Shown: positions 28,379 through 29,691 of the stretch, piece after piece
Layout: the number at the start of each line of letters is the position of its first letter
How positions within the stretch are numbered: the first letter of the stretch is position 1
NCBI GenBank assembly: GCA_019348115.1
Contig: JAHWKB010000007.1
Location: 1 to 37,923, forward strand
Direction of reading: 5' to 3'
DNA: 37,923 bases
Source: Actinomycetota bacterium
GTDB lineage: Bacteria > Actinomycetota > Nitriliruptoria > Nitriliruptorales > Nitriliruptoraceae
Translations under genes and position numbers: made by a program
Notes under the pieces: model-generated
Told to the model about the DNA's origin: nothing
The model's input: the letters and a program-made list of their open reading frames with translations, nothing else
The model's database searches: none

Positions 28379-28407
28379 TTGCGTCCCCCCGGGGCGACGT
28401 CTACCTT
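28379..28407 (+). promoter_or_regulatory. Candidate ftsZ promoter (-35 TTGCGT, -10 TACCTT)
   Basis: TTGCGT at 28379-28384 and TACCTT at 28402-28407 are 17 bp apart. Transcription from about 28414 would place the AGAGGT repeats at the very start of the leader. An alternative pair is TTTACA 28424-28429 with TAGAGG 28447-28452, also 17 bp apart but with a worse -10. Confidence 0.45.
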
Positions 28408-28418
28408 CACGCGCCACC

Positions 28419-28454
28419 AGAGGTTTACATAAGTATACACCTCTACTAGAGGTT
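28419..28454. promoter_or_regulatory. Three AGAGGT half-sites in the ftsZ leader
   Basis: AGAGGT at 28419-28424 and 28448-28453 on the plus strand and its complement ACCTCT at 28439-28444 form two overlapping dyads. One is tight, ACCTCT-ACT-AGAGGT, perfect arms. The block is A/T-rich against its surroundings. It looks like a dimer-binding operator of MerR type or an RNA hairpin in the leader. Confidence 0.6.
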
Positions 28455-28527
28455 GAGACAACCCGCACGGTGCAGGGACCGGGACGACCGCCCCGCCCAC
28501 CCGGTGCGCGAACCGAGGAGAGCGCCC

Positions 28528-29691
28528 ATGTCGGCGAACCCGACCAACTACCTGGCCGTCATCAAGGTCGTCGGCATCGGCGGCGGCGGCGTCAACGCGG
28601 TGAACCGCATGATCGACGCCGGCCTGCGGGGGGTCGAGTTCATCGCGATCAACACCGACGCCCAGGCCCTGCTCATGTCGGACGCCGACGTGAAGCTCGA
28701 CATCGGGCGCGACCTGACCCGCGGTCTCGGCGCCGGCTCGGACCCGTCGGTGGGCCGGCAGGCCGCCGAGGACCACCGCGACGAGATCGTCGAGGTCCTG
28801 AAGGGCGCCGACATGGTGTTCGTCACCGCCGGCGAGGGCGGTGGCACCGGCACCGGCGGTGCGCCCGTCGTGGCCGAGGTCGCCAAGGAGCTCGGCGCGC
28901 TGACGATCGGCGTGGTCACCCGCCCGTTCACCTTCGAGGGCCGCAAGCGCAGCCTCCAGGCCGAGGAGGGGATCGCGGGTCTCAAGGACAAGGTCGACAC
29001 GCTCATCATCATCCCGAACGACCGGCTGCTGCAGATCGCCGACGGCGAGACCTCGGTCGTGCAGGCGTTCCGGCTCGCCGACGACGTGCTGCTCCAGGGC
29101 GTGCAGGGCATCACCGACCTCATCATGACGCCCGGCCTGATCAACCTCGACTTCGCCGACGTCCGCACGGTGATGAAGGACGCCGGGTCCGCGCTCATGG
29201 GGATCGGCAAGGCGCGCGGCGAGAACCGCGCGCTGGAGGCCGCGAAGTTCGCCATCAGCTCGCCGCTGCTCGAGGCGTCCATCGACGGCGCGCGCGGCGT
29301 CCTCCTCATGCTCGCCGGCGGCAGTGACCTCGGCCTGTTCGAGGTCAACGAGGCCGCCGACGTCATCACGAAGGCGGCGCACGCCGACGCCAACATCATC
29401 TTCGGTGCCGTGATCGACGACTCGCTGGGTGACGAGGTCAAGGTCACCGTGATCGCCGCCGGCTTCGACAAGTACGAGCCGCTCGAGCAGGAGGGCGCGT
29501 TCGTCTCCGGCCAACCGGCGGACGAGGGTCGCCACCTCGCGCCCGCCGCTCCGTACCTCGACGAGGACGACGAGGACGACGAGGACGACGTCTTCCGCTC
29601 GTCCGGCCCGAACGACGCCGAGCGCCGTCCGTCGGTCGTCATCGACGCCGAGACGGACGACGACCTGGACATCCCGTCGTTCCTGCGGTGA
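28528..29691 (+). CDS. ftsZ: Tubulin-like division GTPase FtsZ
   Basis: 387 residues. It forms the Z-ring. GTPase domain: [16 protein letters not shown], tubulin signature [15 protein letters not shown]7-loop region DFADVRTVM. After about residue 316 comes a short variable linker with an acidic run D345-D354 encoded by a 9-bp tandem repeat, then the conserved C-terminal peptide [10 protein letters not shown] that binds SepF. Start ATG 28528 has GAGGAG seven bases upstream. It is the first gene after a 179-bp gap with its own likely promoter, and overlaps pgeF by GTGA. Confidence 0.98.
29560..29589 (+). repeat. 9-bp tandem repeat (GACGAGGAC) inside ftsZ
   Basis: Three full copies and a third of a fourth encode the D/E run in the FtsZ linker. 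Units keep the frame, so copy-number change would alter linker length without breaking the gene. Confidence 0.8.

Follow-up and report, generated by a model that had tools for sequence, protein, structure and literature searches.

The window analysed here is a 37,923-nucleotide stretch of DNA from a bacterium of the Nitriliruptoraceae (contig JAHWKB010000007.1). Its plus strand carries ftsZ, which encodes 387 amino acids (28528..29691; TIGR00065, 418.5 bits against a cut-off of 295.2). In the leader of this gene three hexamers can be read directly: AGAGGT at 28419-28424, the inverted ACCTCT at 28439-28444, and a second AGAGGT at 28448-28453. They lie downstream of a predicted promoter on the plus strand, P_up (28379..28407), which consists of TTGCGT (28379-28384), a 17-nt spacer and TACCTT (28402-28407), and from which RNA is predicted to start at about 28413-28416. 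P_up was not listed by a promoter scan, because the thresholds of the scan lie near the E. coli consensus. The G+C content is 39% over 28416-28461, compared to 74% window-wide. AGAGGT occurs 13 times in the window, counted on either strand, and a triple within 40 bp just once; no such triple arose in 200 first-order Markov simulations of the window. Direct reading, base composition and simulation thus agree that the three half-sites in an A/T-rich block below TTGCGT-N17-TACCTT, first pointed out in the sequence-only reading, are real. The range given there, 28379-28454, contains the half-sites but stops short, as conservation extends to about 28461.

Of the 61 genomes in the set of relatives, the window's own genome included, 58 yielded an FtsZ, and 56 ftsZ leaders were read, those of G060 and G049 having been left out. 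The conserved part of the leader is a composite element of 42 bp on the plus strand (28420..28461), which is ungapped in the relatives; position p of the element corresponds to window position 28419+p. It was recognised in 49 of the 56 readable ftsZ leaders of Nitriliruptoria, again with the own genome included, and its consensus in Nitriliruptoria is GAGGTTkACATAAnTATAAnCCTCTACTTGAGGTTGAGGGTn. In these 49 leaders the element scored 43-71 with a position weight matrix, compared to -8.7 for the best shuffled sequence. Mean column identity was 0.85 in one half of the element and 0.79 in the other, compared to about 0.42 for the flanking sequence. When the own genome was searched with the element profile, the ftsZ leader was found with an E-value of 5.9e-11, and the next best match had an E-value of 0.036. 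The case first made from the sequence had been staked on conservation of the half-sites in relatives, and the alignment of ftsZ leaders finds the site kept at the frequency given above.

The element was not found in seven of the 56 leaders (G003, G005, G006, G011, G022, G027 and G032). The leader of G003 is rearranged and lacks it. In G005 and G006 the readable stretch of leader is short, and G005 has a pattern match on another contig. The other four belong to one small-genome genus of the same family (L051, L040, L041 and L052, for G011, G022, G027 and G032). There TTkACATAA has been lost before ftsZ, and P_up and a dyad of the CCCTC/GAGG type are retained.

The element extends beyond the class. 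A pattern allowing up to three mismatches matched in 60 of 396 genomes of the phylum, compared to a single match for the reversed control. At 27 of 30 loci inspected the match was immediately upstream of ftsZ; the three exceptions belong to families f16 and f28. An exact 29-bp pattern taken from the element was also scanned over 257 Gb of genomes and matched at least 119 stretches. Among the 119 matches listed, 118 are in ftsZ leaders, 90-251 nt before the KVVG codons of ftsZ, and the remaining one is at a locus edge. The hosts among the matches listed include Mycobacterium, Mycolicibacterium, Nocardia, Rhodococcus, Tsukamurella and Williamsia, and also Micromonospora, Salinispora, Actinoplanes and Nocardioidaceae. 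In mycobacterial ftsZ leaders TTGACATAA precedes the FtsR site, and in genomes of the genus Mycobacterium the leader reads TTGACATAACTCTAAGCCTATGGTTGAGGTTTAGGGTT. A Streptomyces-size genome keeps AACCCT-N13-AGGGTT and lacks the TTkACATAA part.

The right part of the element has the symmetry expected of an operator. Positions T17, T23, A31 and A37 are invariant and CCT at 21-23 and AGG at 31-33 are nearly so, all symmetric about position 27, which places the predicted FtsR operator core, TNNNCCTN7AGGNNNA, at 28436..28456, with no strand assigned and the dyad centre at 28446. In Corynebacterium glutamicum, ftsZ is activated by FtsR, which binds AACCCTAAAGTAAAGGTTGAGGGTA in front of the gene; relative to the mapped start this site is reported to span -61 to -85, and similar sites have been proposed in other genera (PMC6683498). 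Comparison with the published motif had been proposed along with the FtsR link. When the C. glutamicum 25-mer was slid along both strands of the window, the best match was at 28437-28461, with 16 of 25 bases identical. The runner-up (15/25, 28402-28426, minus strand) overlaps the left end of the element, and unrelated places in the window reached up to 14/25. The predicted 25-bp FtsR box (ACACCTCTACTAGAGGTTGAGACAA) is therefore drawn at 28437..28461, without strand, in the register of the published site. Comparison of the Streptomyces-size sequence with that of C. glutamicum set the published motif at element positions 18-42 rather than 12-36. Between the box and the ATG at 28528 there are 66 nt, which is inside the range of 41-193 bp reported in PMC6683498.

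The C. glutamicum operator likewise stands before ftsZ, with CCT-N7-AGG arms followed by GGTTGAG. It differs in the right outer arm, which is AGGGTA there and AGACAA in the window, and in its surroundings, since the window has P_up upstream and TTTACATAA abutting the box. The mycobacterial Rv1828/FtsR site of promoter P1 is arranged like that of the window, TTGACATAA-N3-TAA-N-CCT-N7-AGG in the same register, and an upstream TAnnnT is also present at a fixed distance. From the upstream -10 to TTGACA there are 24-25 nt in mycobacteria compared to 22 in the window, and the right end is GAGGGTT or TAGGGTT compared to GAGACAA. In mycobacterial ftsZ leaders such as L254-L257, the published 25-mer of M. 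tuberculosis starts with AACTCTAAG, but AAGCCT-N13-AGGGTT is the register suggested by the alignment across the phylum, and the published 25-mer may have been placed 6 bp too far upstream. The exact M. tuberculosis 25-mer, searched in its genus, matched four other genomes.

The FtsR link could also have failed for want of the protein, and an FtsR homologue is present. The own genome has an FtsR equivalog on contig C397 (NF050798, 219.7 bits, cut-off 150), the start of its gene being cut off by the contig end. It matches 5ydc, the C-terminal domain of Rv1828, with an E-value of 1.4e-9. Compared with FtsR of the Streptomyces-size genome, 95 of 204 aligned residues are identical, most densely in the DNA-binding part. 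In the known cluster, FtsR is flanked by garA/odhI, a bifunctional nuclease gene and a second MerR gene. Part of this neighbourhood is seen on C397: downstream of FtsR are a bifunctional-nuclease-like gene and a second MerR gene, with one further gene between, and the garA side lies past the end of the contig. Among 396 phylum genomes, 344 have an FtsR above the NF050798 cut-off, and because FtsR is nearly universal, its co-occurrence with the element discriminates weakly. In family f24 the genomes sampled gave only weak FtsR hits, and the element is in none of them, which fits the link and is weak evidence. Taken together, site conservation, the equivalog and the match to the published motif support the regulator suggested at the outset, and 28420-28461 very probably contains the FtsR operator of ftsZ.

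Box-like sites were also seen before the second MerR gene of this cluster. The weak profile match in the own genome (C397:447-469, L006; E 0.036) lies there, and several relatives (L267, L268, L271, L282, L270, L283) share with the own genome a dyad resembling the FtsR box, without TTkACATAA, in front of this gene. Such sites scored 25-31 in G022, G028 and G007 and 11-18 in G005, G011, G012, G023 and G044, with shuffled maxima of 2-13. No convincing box was found before this gene in G003, G017, G019, G035 and most of the other-family genomes examined. From these dyads, FtsR may regulate the neighbouring second MerR gene. Many relatives also have a conserved GTTCCAC-N2-3-GTGT-like stretch after the -10 of this gene (L006, L265-L284), possibly the second MerR regulator's own site. 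A palindromic profile match of 12.3 bits elsewhere in the own genome (C267:4447-4469, L262), before an uncharacterised membrane-protein-like gene, was judged a probable chance match.

The promoter proposed for the window, TTGCGT-N17-TACCTT, has an equivalent in every Nitriliruptoria leader with the element. The pattern TTG-N17/18-TAnnnT lies 15-25 nt before TTKACA in all 49 element-bearing leaders. When only leaders with TAnnnT at 18-28 nt were considered, the P_up pattern was present in 38 of 38, compared to 0.3% of shuffles. TAnnnT is also found 24-26 nt upstream in most mycobacterial and Micromonospora leaders. Inside the element, the TTkACATAA block, TTTACATAA in the window (28424..28432, plus strand), is nearly invariant in the 49 Nitriliruptoria leaders, and TTTACA at 28424-28429 resembles a -35 hexamer, here assigned to a proposed second promoter, P_dn. 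No good TAnnnT -10 was found in the window 16-18 bp after TTTACA. The candidates in the window are GAGGTT at 19 bp (28449..28454, plus strand), a weak and tentative -10, and GAGACA at 25 bp. At the offset of GAGGTT, nAnnnT is present in 67% of Nitriliruptoria leaders and in 100% of mycobacterial and Micromonospora leaders, with the first T of TAnnnT almost never present. In G001 and G047 only 17-20 nt separate the element from the start codon, which makes a further promoter downstream of the element unlikely there.

The proposed mechanism has two starts. P_up, a conserved promoter of sigma-A type, would give basal, FtsR-independent transcription through the operator. A dimer of FtsR, a MerR-family protein, would bind the dyad centred at 28446. 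TTTACATAA would provide the -35 region of P_dn, the -10 would fall within the FtsR box or at its end, and binding of FtsR would activate this inner start. The supply of FtsZ would then track FtsR activity. Activation of the inner start is favoured on the precedent of C. glutamicum, where ftsZ is activated by FtsR. For the exact layout, P_up followed by an FtsR-controlled P_dn inside the element, the balance of the sequence evidence is about even.

Classical MerR-type promoters, such as those of MerR, SoxR and BmrR, have a spacer of 19-20 bp with the dyad in its middle. The window shares with them a MerR-family dimer (predicted), a dyad, the -35-like TTTACA and a possible -10 at 19 bp. The resemblance to MerR-family operators that had been seen in the half-sites holds for the dyad, which is very probably of the FtsR type, but not for its placement: the centre, 28446, lies 17 nt downstream of TTTACA, late in the 19-bp spacer (28430-28448) and close to the putative -10. 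With a -10 at 19 bp the spacer would be MerR-like and the dyad off-centre; with a -10 at 25 bp the dyad centre would precede the -10 by 9 bp, as in MerR promoters, and the spacer would be very long. It is tentatively suggested, with less confidence than the two-promoter layout, that the geometry (17 bp from the -35 to the dyad centre, with the -10 beneath the box or immediately past it) is unlike that of classical MerR promoters. We would give the same guarded standing to the wider proposal of a composite switch, widespread and nearly confined to ftsZ, in which a TTkACATAA -35 and the operator are held in fixed register with a constitutive promoter just upstream.

The main rival to activation of the inner start is a roadblock to P_up. 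FtsR bound at about +21 to +44 would stop RNA polymerase and repress ftsZ, and TTkACATAA would be an extra protein contact rather than a -35. In all 49 leaders the operator lies downstream of a conserved P_up, TTkACA is not followed by a consensus -10, and repression of cop1 by FtsR, through a site that overlaps the -10, has been suggested (PMC6683498). Repression is hard to reconcile with the activation of ftsZ by FtsR in C. glutamicum and with P1 of M. tuberculosis, which is reported with the FtsR site between its -35 and -10 (PMC6683498), and we consider it unlikely. A different arrangement, in which two FtsR dimers occupy overlapping dyads, AGAGGT (28419) with ACCTCT (28439) and ACCTCT with AGAGGT (28448), is a good deal less probable. 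Both dyads are present in the window, as had been described, and GAGG is common before TTkACA in the window's own family. Outside that family GAGG is variable, being replaced by TAGG, CAGG, CTGG or GAAG, and it is also replaced in mycobacteria and Micromonospora, while TTkACATAA stays, nearly invariant; the pairing of the first dyad shows no covariation. The second, tight dyad is therefore retained as the predicted operator, and the first AGAGGT is family-specific.

That the dyads act in RNA, through competing leader hairpins that pair arm 1 with arm 2 or arm 2 with arm 3, is very improbable. The leader does fold somewhat better than its shuffles (z -2.07), with the first hairpin formed. Against a hairpin, which had been offered as an alternative, covariation counts covering the first hairpin and the outer arms gave nothing above shuffles for the first hairpin, no Rfam family exceeded its threshold, and no terminator-like site was found. 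The mycobacterial CCTATGGTTGAGG cannot form the tight hairpin, and the DNA motif is kept nonetheless. Short hexamer repeats are by themselves weak evidence, and a chance or low-information A/T-rich patch might have been suspected; conservation and specificity for ftsZ leaders refute this, and virtually no weight is left to it.

FtsR is already a known regulator. Its reach into Nitriliruptoria, an early actinobacterial branch, and the composite element are not described in the text of PMC6683498, where the mechanism of activation in C. glutamicum is left open. Across the range from Nitriliruptoria to mycobacteria, a nearly invariant block keeps a fixed distance to the FtsR dyad and is nearly confined to ftsZ, which lends this question a concrete geometry. 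The dose of FtsZ sets division, and to our knowledge little is known of the control of ftsZ in actinobacteria. The fixed geometry bears on which start FtsR uses and on whether it acts as a classical MerR activator.
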